Positions 3,245-13,300 are shown, counted from the first letter of the stretch. The stretch: 38,040 bases of DNA from an uncultured Fidelibacterota bacterium (GCA_937888365.1 CALBFA010000007.1:1-38040), one strand, 5' to 3'. Notes: generated by a model not told the origin, from the letters alone. Program-made: numbers and translations.

Positions 3245-5602
3245 TTAACCCAATATTAAATTTATCAATAACACCAAGTCTTGGATATTCGTTGTATTAT
3301 CTTGATTAACATCGGCAGCAACACTTGGAAGCCCTTCTAAAACGGCTGTGCCGAGAAGATGATTGACTAAGATAACGACATCTTGAATATTTATGGTATA
3401 ATCGGCATTCACATCGCCAGGCGTTAGAACCATGCCATTCCCGGAAATCATGACGCTAATGTCATCAATGGCGGCTTCTACTAATGAGCCAGGTGTATTG
3501 TCTTGAGCTACAAATTTAAGCTGTACGGTTGATGCAAAAGTTGAATAATGCGTGCTGAGAAATTGATAATTCACCCATTGACCTGTGCTAAGACTAATGT
3601 TCTCAATCTCGACCCAAGTTCCACTATTAAATCGTGCAAAAACTTGAAAAGGATCATCACCGGAATTACTACCTTCGCTATTGGAATACCATCTCCAATA
3701 TGAAATGATATTTGTATTTCCTGAAATCAGTGGGATTTGAGGTGAAATTAATGTCGTGGTTCCGCCATCAACATCACCAGCGCCAGAATTTGAACCATTA
3801 AACGCTACATTGCCCGTTACATAGCAAGAAACTCCAGAGAGTGTATGATCGTCTTCGGGTTGTACGGGAACGCCAAGCTCAGTGGTTCCAATGGGGTCAA
3901 CGCGTACCCAAACGCCACCTGTCGCATTATCGCCAGGGATGCCCAATTGCCATGCGTTATCAGCTTCTGCCGCATCCGAATAGGTTTGATTAAACGCAGC
4001 AAGAGGACCGACTAAATAGAAAAATGGTTTATTGATACCATCTTCGGGATAGGAAATATTAGAACCATCATTTGATTCGACATTAAAATAATATTCCACA
4101 ATGTTACCGACTTCCTGACCTGGAAGCGTAACTGTCCAAATATTTTCAACAGTGCTAGTCATTGAGATAGCTTCGTAATTAGCCCCTGAAACACGATAAT
4201 AAGCCGTCACGCTTGTAGGTGGAGCAGGCGAGTAAACCAAAAATTCTAAAGGAACGTCTGTGTTCGCGGCGACTAAACCTTCGACAGGAGTGTGGGAGAG
4301 TTGCATACCCGTAAGTGCTTGAAAAGCGTTAACTCTTGCACCCATCAGAACGTTGCCAATATCATCACCATTTTTTAAAATGTCTTCTAATTCAGTAGGC
4401 GTTAAATTAGGGAACCGAGACTTTACCAAAGCCGCAACACCTGCGACTAAAGGCGTCGCCATGGATGTTCCATCCCACGCTTCATATTGATTATTATGAT
4501 ACGGATTCTCTGGATCGACGCAGCTCCAAATCGAGGACCCAGGAGCGCACATATCAACCCAAGAACCGTAATTGGAAAACCATGAACGATTGTCGGATTG
4601 GTTGGTTGCGCCTACTGAAAGTGTACCATCGTTGGCTGCGGGATAATGTGGAGTAGAGCTTCCGTCATTTCCTGCAGCAAATAACACTAAGGAACCCATA
4701 GTATTGCGTGCATATAAAATAGCGGCTTGAATGGTACTTGAACTAGGACCACCACCCCAACTGTTGGAAAGGATATCAGCGCCATTATCGGCAGCATAGG
4801 TTATTGCATTGGCTGTTACATTGTCCCAAGCGTTTGGAAATATTTTTACGGCCATAAGTTTTGAATGTTGCGATGCACCTGCGATACCAATAAAATTATT
4901 CGTTACGCCTGCCGCAATACCGGCGCAATGTGATCCATGGTCCTCGCTATGATAGGAATCCCAGCCCCAATCATGATTAGGGTTCGCATCCGAATTTGAG
5001 AAATCGTATCCATTGACATCATCGATATAGCCATTCCCGTCATCATCAATAAAGTTTCCCGGAATTTCACCTGGATTAACCCAAAGGTTCGCCATTAAAT
5101 CTGGGTGATCTAAATCTATCCCTGTATCAATGATGGCAACTACGACGGTGTCAGAACCTGTTTCAATATCCCACGCTTGTTCACTTTGAATCGTTGCATG
5201 ATGCCATGAATTTGGAAATAGTGCATCATTAGGTGTCATTTGCACGTCATGGATACTACGTAACCAAGCGGGTTCAGCAAAATCGATATCATCAGCATTT
5301 TGCAGTGCTATAATGGCATTTTCTAAATCGTCAGGATTTGAGACATCTGTTTTTAAAATTAAATGAATATCATCAATATGAGAAGCGTTGCCTAAAGGCT
5401 TAATAAATGCGGGACTCGTGAGAGCGAAATCTTGCATTATCACGTTTAGAGCAGGCCTAGCATCGAGTGATAAATTGGAGGACCTCTGACTGACTGCTTC
5501 TGTTTTCACTTTAAATAAAATGGTTGTTGGATGATGTGGCCACGACATATCTATGGCGAAGGACATCGAGATAAATGACAGAAATAATATAAACTTTTTC
5601 AT
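3245..5602 (-). CDS. secreted subtilisin-like serine protease with C-terminal dockerin-like repeats
   Basis: This 785-residue S8 peptidase carries a signal peptide (1-16), a propeptide-like segment (about 25-120) and a catalytic domain with Asp159 (AIIDTGID), His222 (DHGSHCAG), oxyanion Asn312 (FAAGND) and Ser380 (GTSMATP), so the triad is intact. A beta-rich region follows (about 440-725, with a Y-rich module resembling MAM/CUB-like domains). The end (about 728-785) holds two F-hand calcium loops, DVNADYTINIQD and DVNQDNTTNIQD, typical of type I dockerins. AAAGGA lies just upstream of the ATG. It probably digests extracellular protein. No cohesin or scaffoldin is present nearby, so the dockerin pair may act as a sorting or stabilising tail. 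It is monocistronic, with its terminator shared with the convergent operon. Confidence 0.95.
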   Translation of the reverse strand: MKKFILFLSFISMSFAIDMSWPHHPTTILFKVKTEAVSQRSSNLSLDARPALNVIMQDFALTSPAFIKPLGNASHIDDIHLILKTDVSNPDDLENAIIALQNADDIDFAEPAWLRSIHDVQMTPNDALFPNSWHHATIQSEQAWDIETGSDTVVVAIIDTGIDLDHPDLMANLWVNPGEIPGNFIDDDGNGYIDDVNGYDFSNSDANPNHDWGWDSYHSEDHGSHCAGIAAGVTNNFIGIAGASQHSKLMAVKIFPNAWDNVTANAITYAADNGADILSNSWGGGPSSSTIQAAILYARNTMGSLVLFAAGNDGSSTPHYPAANDGTLSVGATNQSDNRSWFSNYGSWVDMCAPGSSIWSCVDPENPYHNNQYEAWDGTSMATPLVAGVAALVKSRFPNLTPTELEDILKNGDDIGNVLMGARVNAFQALTGMQLSHTPVEGLVAANTDVPLEFLVYSPAPPTSVTAYYRVSGANYEAISMTSTVENIWTVTLPGQEVGNIVEYYFNVESNDGSNISYPEDGINKPFFYLVGPLAAFNQTYSDAAEADNAWQLGIPGDNATGGVWVRVDPIGTTELGVPVQPEDDHTLSGVSCYVTGNVAFNGSNSGAGDVDGGTTTLISPQIPLISGNTNIISYWRWYSNSEGSNSGDDPFQVFARFNSGTWVEIENISLSTGQWVNYQFLSTHYSTFASTVQLKFVAQDNTPGSLVEAAIDDISVMISGNGMVLTPGDVNADYTINIQDVVILVNHLLGTAVLEGLPSVAADVNQDNTTNIQDLVLLINLILG

Positions 5603-7763: not shown

Positions 7764-7781
7764 TGACCGACCAGTCAGTCA
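7764..7781. promoter_or_regulatory. TetR-type operator palindrome
   Basis: TGACCGACCAGTCAGTCA is a near-palindrome (14 of 18 positions symmetric) with GAC/GTC blocks every 4 bases, the look of operators bound by TetR/AcrR repressors. It ends 18 bases before the regulator's start codon and would overlap the transcription start or early leader, a position suited to autorepression of the whole downstream operon. It was seen directly in the sequence; binding is inferred. Confidence 0.65.
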
Positions 7782-7799
7782 ACTTAGCGAAAGGACTCT

Positions 7800-8429
7800 A
7801 TGACTCCGCTTCCAAAACACCCCGAAAAAGCACAACTCATTCTCCATGCAGCCCTCAAAGTATTTAGCGAAAAAGGTATTGAAAAAGGAACGATTGCTGA
7901 GATAGCAAAAGAAGCTGGCCTTGGCAAAGGGACGGTTTACCAATATTATAATTCAAAAGCCGATATTTACTTCGCCATCGAAGTTTCTAAGGCTGAAACC
8001 TGGGATCTACTTTTCCAAACGACTATGGCAAAACCCATTTCATGTTCTCAAAAACTGGAATTATTAATCAGCGAAGGCGTCGCTCAAACAATTCACGCAG
8101 GTGATGCTATTCTCGTGATATTTGAAATATGGTCTCATACTATTCGAGGTCTTGTAGATGAAAATAGTTTTTCACCCATGACAATTATGTATGAAAAATT
8201 CCATTCCGAGCTGGTTGCACTTTTGGAGCAAGGTATCGCTAAAGGCGAATTTCGTGAGATGCAACCATCAGGTGTTGCAACGATGATTATTGCGTTTATG
8301 GATGGCATTTCCATACAAATGTTGATGTTAAAGGATCAATTTGAAAAAAATAATTGGGTCGAACAATCGATACAATCTCTATTGAATGGTTTAATTTCAA
8401 AACCAAGTAAGGATAAGGAAATCCAATGA
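7800..8429 (+). CDS. TetR/AcrR-family transcriptional regulator
   Basis: The 209-residue protein has the N-terminal TetR DNA-binding domain: helix-turn-helix at about 31-50 (TIAEIAKEAGLGKGTVYQYY), preceded by AALKVFSEKGIEKG. The C-terminal domain is all-helical and should bind a small hydrophobic ligand and mediate dimerisation. AAAGGA lies a few bases ahead of the ATG. The stop overlaps the start of the LolA-like gene (ATGA), so it is the first gene of the exporter operon. The palindrome at 7764-7781 is its probable target, giving negative autoregulation relieved by the ligand the system exports. Ligand unknown. Confidence 0.93.
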   Translation: MTPLPKHPEKAQLILHAALKVFSEKGIEKGTIAEIAKEAGLGKGTVYQYYNSKADIYFAIEVSKAETWDLLFQTTMAKPISCSQKLELLISEGVAQTIHAGDAILVIFEIWSHTIRGLVDENSFSPMTIMYEKFHSELVALLEQGIAKGEFREMQPSGVATMIIAFMDGISIQMLMLKDQFEKNNWVEQSIQSLLNGLISKPSKDKEIQ

Positions 8430-9163
8430 GTGTAAAGAATATTCTTTTCATTTTATCGCTGCTTTCGTCCTTCATCATGGCTCAGGAAGCCAGTGAAATT
8501 TTGGACAATATGGAAAAAGCGATGACGCAAATATCCTCAAAAGGGATTATGAGTCAAACGATAAAGACGAGTACTGGAAGTTTGCGAGAACTTGAATATG
8601 AATATTACAGTGGTGAAAAAGGCAAGCACACGCTGATGCGTTATCTCAAGCCGAGCCGCTCTAAAGGTATGGCCATTTTAATGCGCGATAATTCATCTCA
8701 AATTTGGATGTATAATCAACGGACTCGCCGCGCTCGCATGTTGGCCTCATCAGCGAAAAATCAGAATTTCGAAAATAGCGATTTTACCTATGAAGATATG
8801 GGAGGCAGCGATTCTTGGACTGATAAATATGACGCAACACGACTCGAAGATGACAAAGACGGCCATTATATGCTTGAGCTCAAACCAAAGAAAAGTGCCG
8901 ATGTTTCCTATACGAAACTCATCATGCAAATCCGAAAAAGTGATAATCATCCTTTAAGTATTGCCTATTTTAATGATGAGTCGGATGCATTTAAAACACT
9001 CTATTTCGATGATATTCGCATTATCGAAGGCGTCCCGACGGCATTTTTACTTACAATGAAAAATCATCGCACGGGTTCAAATACGATTATGAAAATAATC
9101 AGCATCACCTACGATGTTGAATTTGATGATGATTTCTTTTTCGAAAATAATTTGAGGAAATAA
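8426..9163 (+). CDS. LolA-like outer-membrane lipoprotein-sorting protein (COG2834 type)
   Basis: This 245-residue periplasmic protein has a signal peptide ending FIMAQ (about 1-20) and then a LolA-like half-barrel: EASEILDNMEKAMTQIS, a SLRELEYEYYSG strand, LKPSRSKGMAILMRD, QIWMYNQRTRRARML and DFTYEDMGG. The positively charged MYNQRTRRARML strand and the DFTYEDM lid are hallmarks of the COG2834 subgroup, which sits next to RND exporters in many genomes. The known fold carries a lipid or lipoprotein acyl chain through the periplasm. It overlaps TetR at its start and the barrel gene at its end (TAATG), so all are translated together. It is not the housekeeping LolA: the regulator and exporter context point to a dedicated cargo. 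Confidence 0.85.
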   Translation: MSVKNILFILSLLSSFIMAQEASEILDNMEKAMTQISSKGIMSQTIKTSTGSLRELEYEYYSGEKGKHTLMRYLKPSRSKGMAILMRDNSSQIWMYNQRTRRARMLASSAKNQNFENSDFTYEDMGGSDSWTDKYDATRLEDDKDGHYMLELKPKKSADVSYTKLIMQIRKSDNHPLSIAYFNDESDAFKTLYFDDIRIIEGVPTAFLLTMKNHRTGSNTIMKIISITYDVEFDDDFFFENNLRK

Positions 9164-10434
9164 TGAAAACAAAATTTTTTATCCAATTCATTTTAATACT
9201 TAGCATTATATCATCCGCTAACAGTCAAATCGCACTCAATGGGTATTTAGAAAGCGAGCTCTCCACTCAAATTATGGCAGATGAAGGCATCAATCTTGGA
9301 CATTATAAAATGCGATTTGATATGGAAGCCGACGCGCTGGAAAATGTGCGAATATTTTTCAATGCCGAAAATCAAAGCTACTTTGGTCAGACCTTCTTTG
9401 ATTTATCAAAATTTTACCCTGGAACCCTAGATTCACTGAACAGAGCGATGCTGACCATGATGCCTTACTTCATGAGAGACTCATTGTCCATAATGAATAT
9501 GTATGGCATTTATAATACCAAAAAGATCGAGCTTACTTTGGGTCGCCAACCTTTAGCGTTTGGTACGGGCTATGCATGGAATCCTGTCGATGTTTTTAAT
9601 CATAAGGATTTCCTCGATCCATCCAGTGAGCTACGAGGTGTTGATGCCGTTCGTTTACGCTGGCAAATACTAAATCGATTATCTTTAGACGGCGTTTATC
9701 GACTCGGCAGTATCCCCGATAATTCTGATGCCTTTTTAGAAATGAAATGGGGCATTGGGTCTTTGGACATCTCAGTGCTTGCAAGTAATAATTTGATTCA
9801 TTCTTTACGGTATCAAGCTGTAAGCAGTTCATTATTTGATCCCTCAATGTTTGAATTTCCAGTTCTTGATTCGTCAATTTTTAACAATCTATTCCCAATA
9901 TTTTATTATCCAAAAATCAATTTCCAACTCGTCGAACGCAAACAATACGGACTGACATTTTCCACCGAACTGATGGGTATGGGCATCCATGGTGAGTATG
10001 GACATAACACCGAATTAAACCGAATCGATGATACGAAAAGGACCTATCAGCAATGGTTGCTCGGTCTCGATTATACGTTTAATAACGGCTTGTATTTTAT
10101 GTATGAATGGATGAAAAATGAAAATGGATTGTCCTCAATCGACGATTTAGATATCCAACGCTATTTACAATATATGTCCGGCGAACATCTTTCTCTTTTC
10201 CGAAATTATAGTTTTATCAATCTAAGTTATGGTTTAAAAATCCCTGTTGTTCTCAATACTTTCGCCATTTTTAATCATGACGATATAAGTTTTACCATTA
10301 CACCAAGTGCGCAATGGACGCTCAATGATTACCTCGTATTTAATGGATTTGTTGGTTTTAATGGTGGCGATGCAAAGAGTGAATTTGGACTCTTCAAAGC
10401 CTATTCTCGCTTTCAAATCACGGGATATTTCTAA
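9163..10434 (+). CDS. outer-membrane beta-barrel protein of the RND/LolA-like cassette
   Basis: The 423-residue protein has a signal peptide (1-22, ending SANSQ) and then alternating amphipathic strands throughout, including LNGYLESELSTQIMA, YKMRFDMEADAL, TLGRQPLAFGTG and YGLTFSTELMGMG, closing on a C-terminal Phe (FQITGYF) as expected for a BAM-assembled barrel. The GRQPLAFGTGYAWNPVD segment recalls DUF1302-like or phosphate-selective-porin-like barrels that define a periplasmic constriction. It overlaps the LolA-like gene by 1 base and lies 37 bases before the RND gene. Role inferred: outer-membrane acceptor or exit channel for whatever the LolA-like protein carries. No enzymatic motif seen. 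Confidence 0.75.
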   Translation: MKTKFFIQFILILSIISSANSQIALNGYLESELSTQIMADEGINLGHYKMRFDMEADALENVRIFFNAENQSYFGQTFFDLSKFYPGTLDSLNRAMLTMMPYFMRDSLSIMNMYGIYNTKKIELTLGRQPLAFGTGYAWNPVDVFNHKDFLDPSSELRGVDAVRLRWQILNRLSLDGVYRLGSIPDNSDAFLEMKWGIGSLDISVLASNNLIHSLRYQAVSSSLFDPSMFEFPVLDSSIFNNLFPIFYYPKINFQLVERKQYGLTFSTELMGMGIHGEYGHNTELNRIDDTKRTYQQWLLGLDYTFNNGLYFMYEWMKNENGLSSIDDLDIQRYLQYMSGEHLSLFRNYSFINLSYGLKIPVVLNTFAIFNHDDISFTITPSAQWTLNDYLVFNGFVGFNGGDAKSEFGLFKAYSRFQITGYF

Positions 10435-10471
10435 ACCATTGTCAATTATTATCAAAGATTAGGAGCATAAA

Positions 10472-13201
10472 ATGAGATTAAAATTTCTAAATCAATTGAG
10501 CTATTGGATAACAGAAAAAACCTGGCAAACAGGCATTGTTCTTCTATTCATCACACTTCTTATGGGATGGATGTCCAGCCAACTGACACTCTCCATGTCT
10601 ATGACAAATTTATTACCAAGCGACGACCCAAAAGTTGAAGCCTTTGATACCATCATTGAAGAATTTGATGGCGCTTCCACATTGATTGTTGTTGCAGAGG
10701 GAGAAGAGGTAAACATCAAAGCATTTATGGATGCCTTGGTAACGGCACTTGATGTTCCTGAACTTGATGAATATATCAAAACCATCGATTATAAGGTACC
10801 TCAAGATTTCATTCGCGAACATGGCCTTATGCTTGTCAAATCAAAAAATCTTGAGAATCAGGTTGGGATATTTGAGTCAAATAATTTGAGCTCGTTAACA
10901 ACGGCTCTCAATGATAATTTTGAAAAAGAATACACGCAAAGCGACGAAAAACTATCGAGTAAAGAACAAGAAACGCAAGCAACCCAATTTATTGATGGCT
11001 TAAATACGTGGGTCGAGGGTTTGGCGAGTGGTTTATCTAACGACAATCTTTTATGGGCAGAAGATGCAAATGATGCTTTAACCTTAGGTGATCCCTACTA
11101 TATGAGTTGGAGCAAGCGCATGGGCATTATGCAAATTATTCCGACTTTTACGATGTTTGATATCGAGCCCAGTATTTTTACCGTCAACACAGTTGAAGAT
11201 ATTGTGGAAAAATTAGCACCGCAATACCATGTTGAGGCAGGAATTACAGGTTCCGTTGCTTTAGGTCGTGACGAAATGGAAGCAATGGAAGGTGATAGTA
11301 TGATTATCACATCCCTCGCGCTTCTGGGGATTCTCATCCTTTTTATTCTCGCATTTCGGATGGTTACCGCCCCATTTCTGGCAATATTGTCATTAATAAT
11401 CGGTGTGATTTGGGCAATGGGAATTGCTTGGTTACTCGTCGGCGAACTGAATATGATGACGTCAATGATGGCCGTTGTCTTGATTGGACTTGGTATCGAT
11501 TTTTCCATCCATATCATAAGTTTATTTACAGAAAGACGTCGAGCCGGGGACACAATCACTGAATCGGTTCGCCAAACTTTGGCACAAACAGGTCCTGGCA
11601 TTTTAACGGGTGGTCTGACGACTTCATTAGCATTCTTTACCATCATCATTTCTAAAACGGCAGGGATGCGAGAATTTGGAATTGTTCTTGGGGTCGGTAT
11701 TATCATGACGATGTTGACATCCATGACGGTGATGCCCTTGCTTTTGGTTTTTGTAGAAAAGTTTATGAAAAAATTCAGAAAAGAGGGCAAGGTTCGAAAA
11801 GTTGTCGATTTGAGATATCTATGGCTGGGAAGCGTTGCCAAAAAAGCAGCTCAATATCGTGTATTTACCTTAGCGGGCAGTGCGATATTTTTAATTTTTC
11901 TTGCTTACAAAGCGACGAATTTAAAATTTGATTACAATTATCTCAATATGGAACCCGTGGGACTAACGTCAATTATTCTTCAAGATAAATTGATTGAAGA
12001 ATTCGATATGAGTACGGATTTCGCCATGCTCACGGTAAAAACGATGGAAGAAGCTGAGTTGTATAGTAAAAAAGCCAAAGAGATGGAAACTGCGAGTATG
12101 GTTCAATCCATTTCTGACTACTTACCCTCGGAAGATGAGCAGATTAAACGGCAACATTATATTGAAGAAATTCAAACGCATCTTGTAACGTTAAAACTTG
12201 CCTCAATTGACAAGGCGACGTTCCTTGATGAACTCTATCGACTCGAAGCCAATATTATTGAAATGCAAGACATGGCGTTTACAGGCGGTCAGGATAAATT
12301 ATTTCTAAAAACTGCCTTTCTTGTTGGTGTGAAAGATGTACCAGAAACCGACATGGCGCCTGAGGAAATAAAGTTAATTCATAAACTTAAATTACTCAAA
12401 GGTGATGAAATATTTTCAGGTTCGTTGACATCTTTTATCCAAACGGTGGAAAATGCCAATGATGATAATTTATCGGATTTGAGCAACGAATATAGCCAAC
12501 TCTTCATGGCGAGAGCCAAGTCCATGGCGAATCCTGAAAAACTGACGATCGCATCTTTACCGACGTCTATTAAAAATCAAATGGTTGGGAAGTCGGGCGA
12601 AGATTTTCTCATTACGATATTTCCTCGGGAAAATGTGTGGGATACGAATTATATCAAACGATTTTCGGCAGAAATGGAAAGTGTAAACCCAAGTATTACG
12701 GGGATGCCTCTCGTGTTCAATCGTCTTATTCCTCTCATCGCTGAAGACGGAAAAAACGCGACATATCTAGCCATTGTCGTCATATTTTTGCTGTTACTTT
12801 TGGATTTTCGGAGATTGTCTGACGCCTTATTAGCGATGCTTCCCCTTATCGCTGGCGTTATTATGATGCTTGGTATTATGGAAATGACGGGACTGATGCT
12901 TACAATGTTAAACATCATGGCGGTGCCGATGATTATTGGAATTAGTATCGATGATGGCGTTCATATTCTTCATCGTTACCGCGGAGATGGCAATAGTGAC
13001 CTTTACGGCACATTTGCATCAACAGGTCGTGCGGTATTGCTAACAACCCTAACAACAATGATTGGATTTGGAAGTCTTTGGTTTGCAACGTATCGCGGAC
13101 TTGGTTCCATGGGGATTGCTTTATTTATTGGAATCGGGGCAAGCTTTGTCGCCACCGTCGTTTTATTATCGGCACTCTTGAAGGCGAAAAAATCTCAATA
13201 A
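10472..13201 (+). CDS. RND-superfamily (MMPL-type) exporter
   Basis: The 909-residue inner-membrane transporter has the duplicated RND architecture: one N-terminal helix (about 17-36), a large periplasmic loop, a five-helix bundle with GLGIDFSIHIISLF, a second helix and loop (from about 470), and a second bundle with GISIDDGVHILHRY. The Asp residues in these two motifs are the usual proton-relay candidates. The two-loop, roughly 900-residue size is that of MMPL/COG1033 lipid exporters such as HpnN-like or MmpL-like proteins, not of the longer drug-efflux AcrB type; no membrane-fusion protein is present. GGAG (10461-10464) lies ahead of the ATG. It ends the TetR operon with a strong terminator. 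Substrate unknown; a hydrophobic lipid is likely. Confidence 0.9.
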   Translation: MRLKFLNQLSYWITEKTWQTGIVLLFITLLMGWMSSQLTLSMSMTNLLPSDDPKVEAFDTIIEEFDGASTLIVVAEGEEVNIKAFMDALVTALDVPELDEYIKTIDYKVPQDFIREHGLMLVKSKNLENQVGIFESNNLSSLTTALNDNFEKEYTQSDEKLSSKEQETQATQFIDGLNTWVEGLASGLSNDNLLWAEDANDALTLGDPYYMSWSKRMGIMQIIPTFTMFDIEPSIFTVNTVEDIVEKLAPQYHVEAGITGSVALGRDEMEAMEGDSMIITSLALLGILILFILAFRMVTAPFLAILSLIIGVIWAMGIAWLLVGELNMMTSMMAVVLIGLGIDFSIHIISLFTERRRAGDTITESVRQTLAQTGPGILTGGLTTSLAFFTIIISKTAGMREFGIVLGVGIIMTMLTSMTVMPLLLVFVEKFMKKFRKEGKVRKVVDLRYLWLGSVAKKAAQYRVFTLAGSAIFLIFLAYKATNLKFDYNYLNMEPVGLTSIILQDKLIEEFDMSTDFAMLTVKTMEEAELYSKKAKEMETASMVQSISDYLPSEDEQIKRQHYIEEIQTHLVTLKLASIDKATFLDELYRLEANIIEMQDMAFTGGQDKLFLKTAFLVGVKDVPETDMAPEEIKLIHKLKLLKGDEIFSGSLTSFIQTVENANDDNLSDLSNEYSQLFMARAKSMANPEKLTIASLPTSIKNQMVGKSGEDFLITIFPRENVWDTNYIKRFSAEMESVNPSITGMPLVFNRLIPLIAEDGKNATYLAIVVIFLLLLLDFRRLSDALLAMLPLIAGVIMMLGIMEMTGLMLTMLNIMAVPMIIGISIDDGVHILHRYRGDGNSDLYGTFASTGRAVLLTTLTTMIGFGSLWFATYRGLGSMGIALFIGIGASFVATVVLLSALLKAKKSQ

Positions 13202-13221
13202 ATCCATAGATAAGTAAATGT

Positions 13222-13262
13222 AAAAAAAGCGCTCTTTAATAATGTTGGAGAGCGCTTTTTTT
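13222..13262. terminator. strong rho-independent terminator, likely bidirectional
   Basis: A 14-bp stem (13222-13235 with 13249-13262, core GCGCTCT/AGAGCGC) with a 13-base loop is flanked by A and T runs. It separates the RND gene from the convergent small lipoprotein gene. Confidence 0.92.
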
Positions 13263-13300
13263 AACTATCTAAATTTTCAGATATTTAATGACTAGATGCA

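Follow-up and report, generated by a model that had tools for sequence, protein, structure and literature searches.

Introduction

For most HAE3-type resistance-nodulation-division (RND) transporters, it is an open question how lipid-like molecules leave the inner membrane and reach the outer one when no membrane-fusion protein is involved. Among the closest described systems, ameABCD of Castellaniella defragrans combines DUF1302, DUF1329/LolA and HAE3 RND proteins, and its deletion decreases monoterpene tolerance and increases the influx of Nile Red (PMC6394551). In P. putida, the DUF1302 barrel of the genes PP_0765/PP_0766 and PP_2018/PP_2019 is predicted to bind a DUF1329 protein that is itself predicted to bind an RND protein and its partner (PMC10866462). 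The operon PG1175-PG1181 of P. gingivalis and similar operons in Prevotella intermedia encode a TetR regulator, an MMPL protein, an outer-membrane lipoprotein-sorting protein and a hypothetical protein, which corresponds to an RND-first order (PMC10434189). HpnN, itself an HAE3 transporter, is described as needing no partner proteins in the periplasm or outer membrane. Here we analysed a four-gene cassette in a 38,040-nucleotide stretch of DNA from an uncultured Fidelibacterota bacterium (GCA_937888365.1 CALBFA010000007.1:1-38040; the whole stretch is called the window, and cassette coordinates count along it). The genome to which the window belongs, as contig C7, measures 2.5 Mb and is 95% complete. 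We propose, with a probability of roughly 0.6, that its four genes provide an envelope-spanning exporter that is induced by a ligand and moves an amphiphile outward. The conserved gene sets described below name the likely partners of an HAE3 RND transporter: a LolA-like carrier and a DUF1302-type barrel.

Organization of the cassette

The cassette and its flanking signals comprise the following features:

7764..7781, no strand, putative operator palindrome TGACCGACCAGTCAGTCA, 18 bases upstream of the TetR start codon
7800..8429, + strand, TetR-family regulator, 209 amino acids (PF00440 TetR_N, E=1e-15)
8426..9163, + strand, LolA-like periplasmic carrier, 245 amino acids (PF17131, E=6e-44)
9163..10434, + strand, outer-membrane beta-barrel, DUF1302-related, 423 amino acids, with a signal peptide and a C-terminal Phe
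10472..13201, + strand, HAE3/MMPL-type RND inner-membrane transporter, 909 amino acids (PF03176, E=3e-40)
13221..13263, no strand, strong terminator-like stem, 15-bp perfect inverted repeat

An initial annotation of this DNA had described four tightly packed genes closed by a strong stem and lacking a membrane-fusion protein, and all open reading frames and spacings were reproduced. The TetR and LolA-like reading frames share 4 bases (ATGA, 8426-8429), the LolA-like and barrel frames share 1 base (TAATG, 9163), and a gap of 37 bases separates the barrel from the RND gene. The region of the closing stem folds with -24.1 kcal/mol (z=-7.1). Since runs of A and T flank the stem and a convergent gene lies beyond it, it is probably a bidirectional terminator; a simple terminator scan gave no match at 13221-13263 because the T run falls inside the stem. 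A Pfam search of the flanking reading frames detected no membrane-fusion protein within or beside the cassette, which thus does not have the adjacent membrane-fusion protein and TolC-type channel of a classical tripartite RND efflux pump (HAE1). A canonical TetR-TolC-membrane-fusion protein-HAE1 RND set is encoded on contig C15 (L018), indicating that ordinary efflux machinery is also present in this genome.

Properties of the carrier, the barrel and the transporter

The carrier belongs to the LolA_like family (PF17131) by profile, with 150 bits against a cut-off of 30 over residues 67-245, and by fold. It carries a Sec-type signal, and reading of the sequence revealed no lipobox. Its AlphaFold2 model (predicted local distance difference test score, pLDDT, 93.7) finds its best solved relatives in 3bk5, 9tp6 (LolA3 of P. 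gingivalis) and 4z48 (DUF1329), at template-modelling (TM) scores of 0.79-0.82, compared to about 0.4-0.47 for the more distant classical LolA. The match to DUF1329 reached 22.5 bits, under the cut-off of 23.1.

The barrel has no Pfam match, and barrel-profile searches of Pfam and Protein Data Bank (PDB) sequences gave nothing useful. Its AlphaFold2 model has 18 strands (pLDDT 89.6) and a fold that Foldseek finds to be porin/AlgE-like, at TM scores of 0.4-0.57 only. A paralogue on contig C67 of the same genome matches DUF1302 (PF06980; E=8e-9, 35.5 bits against a cut-off of 23.2), and iterative searches started from three barrels converge on a single set of 77 proteins. By this indirect route of paralogue, converged homology and fold, the window barrel appears to belong with the DUF1302 family. 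Many positions are invariant in residues 127-162 of the barrel.

The transporter matches MMPL (PF03176) in two stretches, and its hydropathy profile shows two large periplasmic loops. D343 in transmembrane helix 4 (TM4) and D827-D828 in TM10 are invariant in 18 homologues, as would fit a proton-driven pump, and D343 aligns with the TM4 Asp of HpnN. The MMPL repeats, the loops and the acidic residues in TM4 and TM10 together identify the protein as an RND transporter of the HAE3/MMPL type. The parallel with HpnN lipid export drawn in the initial annotation agrees with HpnN (TIGR03480) being the nearest named family; at 356.6 bits against a cut-off of 751.85 the protein lies outside that family, as it does outside the BstA sterol transporters (NF045600; 282.9 bits against 1400).

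The carrier, barrel and transporter genes recur together across phyla

A gene-neighbourhood survey had been proposed beforehand as the check on co-conservation, and its outcome was strongly positive. The surveyed sample consisted mostly of fragmented metagenome-assembled genomes (MAGs), and lineage labels are those of the MAG records. Within the phylum (relatives labelled Neomarinimicrobiota/Fidelibacterota), PF17131 was found in 128 of 149 genomes and an RND protein like that of the window in 65 of the 149; one family had no PF17131 match in any of its 13 listed streamlined genomes. Gene maps of about 80 loci revealed three recurring orders:

Type A: TetR-LolA-barrel-RND, with an RND of about 910 amino acids; the order of the window
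Type B: TetR-RND-LolA-barrel, with an RND of mostly about 765 amino acids
Type C: TetR-barrel-ATPase-FtsX-FtsX-LolA, with an ATP-binding cassette (ABC) engine

When loci were anchored on the carrier, an engine was present in 39/40 (31 RND, 8 FtsX ABC) and a barrel in 36/40; when they were anchored on the RND in named public MAGs, a LolA-like gene and a barrel adjoined 33 of 37 fully flanked homologues (20 of them with TetR as well), the two counts not being independent since some MAGs occur in both surveys. The RND-anchored loci come from at least 10 phylum-level lineages, including Neomarinimicrobiota, Zixibacteria, Calditrichota, Cloacimonadota, KSB1, WOR-3/Stahlbacteria, TA06, Aminicenantes, Fermentibacteria and FCPU426. 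A check based on Pfam only placed 34 of the 40 best DUF1302 matches in the 149 genomes within 2.5 kb of a PF17131 match, and adjacent LolA and barrel genes share bases in 61 of 94 cases.

Some sets contain further genes or unusual components. In two type A loci, a UbiE-type methyltransferase lies between barrel and RND (L103:4994-6810 and L111:4606-6419), and the same interval of L103 also encodes a protein with a CdhD domain and 4Fe-4S motifs, reminiscent of HgcA/HgcB. A saccharopine-dehydrogenase-like NAD(P)-binding protein occupies this position in L086:3891-5000, L087:2743-3900, L111:3370-4470 and L163:6210-6677. Some type B sets have a small membrane protein (110-136 amino acids, no Pfam match) between RND and LolA or after RND (L122:3763-4092, with relatives in L124, L132, L134, L139, L138 and L129). 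The LolA-like reading frame at L111:667-2217 encodes 517 amino acids and so is roughly double the normal size; its LolA_like domain covers residues 104-285 and is followed by a long C-terminal part.

The same carrier, barrel and regulator families occur with two kinds of engine

The genome of the window has four PF17131 genes, including that of the cassette. Two further sets, in the order TetR-RND-LolA-barrel, lie on contigs C67 and C74. On C104, the fourth gene comes after those of an ATPase and two FtsX permeases at the right end of the contig; a matching TetR and barrel, suitably oriented, are located at the left end of C9. We infer that the two ends form one ABC-driven set split by the assembly, because they are collinear with the complete sets L142, L148, L152, L154 and L157. 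In this set, FtsX and ATPase proteins of the LolCDE/MacB type take the place of the RND, and LolA, barrel and TetR are of the same families as in the window. The suggestion of a shuttle distinct from LolCDE is therefore an oversimplification: the cassette uses an RND engine, and the same carrier, barrel and regulator families are also combined with an ABC engine of the LolCDE/MacB type, of which the genome of the window has one example.

The pairwise distances of carrier, barrel and RND correlate with r=0.70-0.77 over 65 long-RND cassettes (shuffle maximum 0.32), which we read as joint inheritance and not as contact because shared species descent contributes to the correlation. In a tree of 99 carriers, the architecture label requires 7 changes compared to 41 when shuffled, and the carriers of ABC-driven sets group in a single clade (support 99/92). 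The window carrier has as its sister group carriers from a different family within its order (96/92) and stands apart from those of the neighbouring genus in its own family. At slightly less than even odds, we consider that carrier, barrel and TetR constitute a general envelope-spanning lipid-exporter module with an interchangeable engine, either a proton-powered RND or an ATP-powered LolCDE/MacB-type ABC, and that one genome may hold several versions that differ in regulator and probably in cargo.

A conserved palindrome precedes the regulator

The initial annotation had also proposed self-regulation through the palindrome at 7764-7781. Its symmetry is 7/9, a value reached with a frequency of about 0.2 in shuffled sequences and hence not beyond chance by itself. 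It is conservation upstream of homologous regulators, not symmetry, that makes the palindrome convincing as an operator. Among the 40 type A regulators, 27 have TGACYGACCRGTCRGTCA in their upstream region with up to 3 mismatches (an exact match in 8 cases), compared to 6 of the 33 type B regulators, none of the 5 type C regulators and 0.5% of 1058 control upstream regions. Some type B regulators (L013, L153, L141, L150 and L137) bear another palindrome, TTAGTGAnnnnTAACTAA-like, and differ in their recognition helices as well (SEPAxYRHF vs GKGTxYEYF); such matched differences in palindrome and helix are what autoregulation predicts. The footprint across homologous upstream regions therefore supports the proposal of a TetR operon predicted to be autoregulated from a conserved operator at its own promoter.

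In three type A loci labelled WOR-3/TA06/Stahlbacteria (L228, L233 and L234), a near-operator with shorter spacing, AGACCGACCGTCGGTCTA-like, occurs together with a different recognition helix. The exact window palindrome has a single copy in the genome. A genome-wide regulon was considered and rejected, as the remaining matches carry 2 mismatches and are no commoner than those of a reversed-pattern control. The nearest NCBIfam model of the regulator is FadR, to which we do not assign it because 57 bits is far under the cut-off of 200.

Elsewhere in the window, positions 3245-5602 encode a large secreted subtilisin-like protein that, by reading of the sequence, has dockerin-like repeats at its C-terminus.

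Discussion

The comparisons show the gene families, the predicted folds, the coupling and conservation of the genes, the variation of the engine and the conservation of the operator. The direction of transport, the hand-over steps, the physical contacts, the ligand and the cargo are what we infer from them. TetR bound to the 18-bp operator beside the promoter would repress the operon, and with it its own expression, and would be released by a small hydrophobic ligand. The molecule would then pass from the RND (or ABC) engine to the carrier and on to the barrel: the LolA-like carrier may receive it and replace a membrane-fusion protein by ferrying it or by bridging the periplasm, and would hand it to the DUF1302-type barrel, through which it may enter or cross the outer membrane. 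The module of carrier, barrel and regulator could couple to different engines, an RND in two gene orders or an ATP-driven FtsX/ABC pair. RND and FtsX-type ABC engines alike are exporters that engage their substrates at the periplasmic face. Because both engine classes export, and because AmeABCD exports hydrophobic compounds (PMC6394551), outward movement of an amphiphile is favoured.

Several observations weigh against this proposal. Four fully flanked RND homologues (L195, L223, L239 and L240) stand without carrier and barrel, so the RND can function without them. The correlated distances are no proof of physical contact. The gene that follows LolA in PG1175-1181 is annotated as hypothetical (PMC10434189) and is at most a candidate for this barrel. 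P. putida depends on PP_0765/PP_0766 (DUF1302/DUF1329) to grow on Tween 20, which fits uptake too (PMC10866462).

Detoxifying efflux survives best among the alternatives, and we still judge it unlikely. Here the cargo would be a foreign hydrophobic compound (a solvent, terpene or antimicrobial) that is itself the TetR ligand, and no physiological lipid would be moved. TetR control with a conserved operator, the monoterpene tolerance conferred by AmeABCD (PMC6394551) and the presence in one genome of several copies with different regulators and operators all fit this explanation. Neighbouring genes speak against it. In 7 loci that cover all three architectures (L013:4243-6462, L141, L153, L150, L152, L107 and L183), the set is followed on its own strand by a gene for a patatin-like phospholipase, and one set includes a phospholipid methyltransferase. 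By guilt by association, these genes point to lipids and favour a lipid cargo over a purely xenobiotic one; moreover, the nearest characterised transporters, HpnN and BstA, are lipid movers, and the genome already encodes a canonical TolC-membrane-fusion protein-RND pump.

Two further readings are considerably less probable than detoxification. In the first, the set is a side branch of lipoprotein sorting, a variant of the Lol route in which an RND or ABC extractor serves a subset of lipoproteins. The LolA fold of the carrier, the LolCDE-like make-up of the ABC variant (FtsX, FtsX, ATPase, LolA) and the comparable MacB, LolA-like and Omp85 cluster BBJ23-29 of Borrelia (PMC13078400) are in line with it. 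The lipoprotein cargo entertained in the initial annotation is nevertheless disfavoured because the set is predicted to be TetR-controlled and inducible and is multi-copy and dispensable, the 13 listed streamlined genomes having no PF17131 match. For housekeeping, the genome has further FtsX pairs and, elsewhere, a weak LolA candidate of its own (PF03548), and the relatives LolA3 of P. gingivalis and lolA3 of F. johnsoniae behave unlike the main LolA.

The second, equally improbable reading is uptake, with barrel and carrier bringing fatty acids or other lipids inward and the RND managing overflow. RND and FtsX-type ABC engines are both exporter families, and both are paired with the same carrier and barrel, which argues against inward transport, as do the AmeABCD data (PMC6394551). 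The Tween 20 requirement of P. putida mentioned above would suit uptake, and the iron-responsive relative operon of P. gingivalis would fit acquisition (PMC10434189). Finally, a hopanoid or sterol transporter of the HpnN or Bst families, its nearest named ones, is very improbable, since the scores fall far below both cut-offs (357 of 752 and 283 of 1400 bits), no squalene-hopene cyclase was found in the 95% complete genome, and HpnN is described without periplasmic or outer-membrane partners.

If outward export of an amphiphile is correct, it would give a function to DUF1302 barrels and to the PF17131 'lipoprotein-sorting' proteins, which were named for lipoproteins without direct evidence. 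The exchange of RND and ABC amounts to a natural experiment, in which the constant parts should define the periplasmic and outer-membrane steps and the changing part the energy source. Since similar sets recur in many little-studied phyla, some of them with an ATP-driven motor in place of the proton-driven one, carrier and outer-membrane channel look exchangeable as a module.

Comparison with known systems

Compared to HpnN (TIGR03480; 5khn, 6wu0), the window transporter is likewise an HAE3 RND of about 880-910 amino acids, alignable in both halves and with the TM4 Asp in common. HpnN is without the invariant Asp pair of TM10, and the window set scores under the family cut-off, has no hopanoid pathway and possesses a dedicated carrier and barrel.

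The LolCDE-LolA pathway resembles the cassette in its carrier fold, and the type C set has the same FtsX-FtsX-ATPase-LolA make-up. The window set differs from it in having an RND engine instead of the LolCDE extractor, a PF17131 carrier instead of a PF03548 LolA, a barrel instead of LolB, TetR control and dispensability. The BBJ23-29 cluster of Borrelia (PMC13078400), with its MacB-like ABC extractor, LolA-like carrier and outer-membrane barrel, recalls type C, and differs by its Omp85 barrel, its TPR proteins, the lack of a TetR and the use of an ABC engine only.

The P. gingivalis operon is distinguished by strong induction under iron shortage and by extra ABC genes (PMC10434189). The P. putida set is divided between two loci, has no dedicated TetR described and uses a DUF1329 protein, not PF17131 (PMC10866462).

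The parallel with DUF1329-DUF1302-RND sets drawn in the initial annotation is borne out by AmeABCD (PMC6394551). Both systems have a DUF1302-type barrel (by the indirect link given above for the window), a LolA-superfamily periplasmic protein and an HAE3 RND, together forming an AmeABCD-type core, and both are inducible clusters (the window set by prediction) with no classical membrane-fusion protein. AmeABCD has in addition AmeC (COG4447), a second periplasmic protein, whereas none of the four genes of the window cassette is AmeC-like; the window set also has a shorter, PF17131 carrier, a different gene order and its own TetR at the head. No description of one carrier-barrel-TetR module common to RND and ABC engines was found in the searched literature, mostly of non-subscription journals. 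Thus, the kind of system itself is already known, and what is new relative to the described relatives is the conservation of the operator and the exchange of the engine between RND and ABC.

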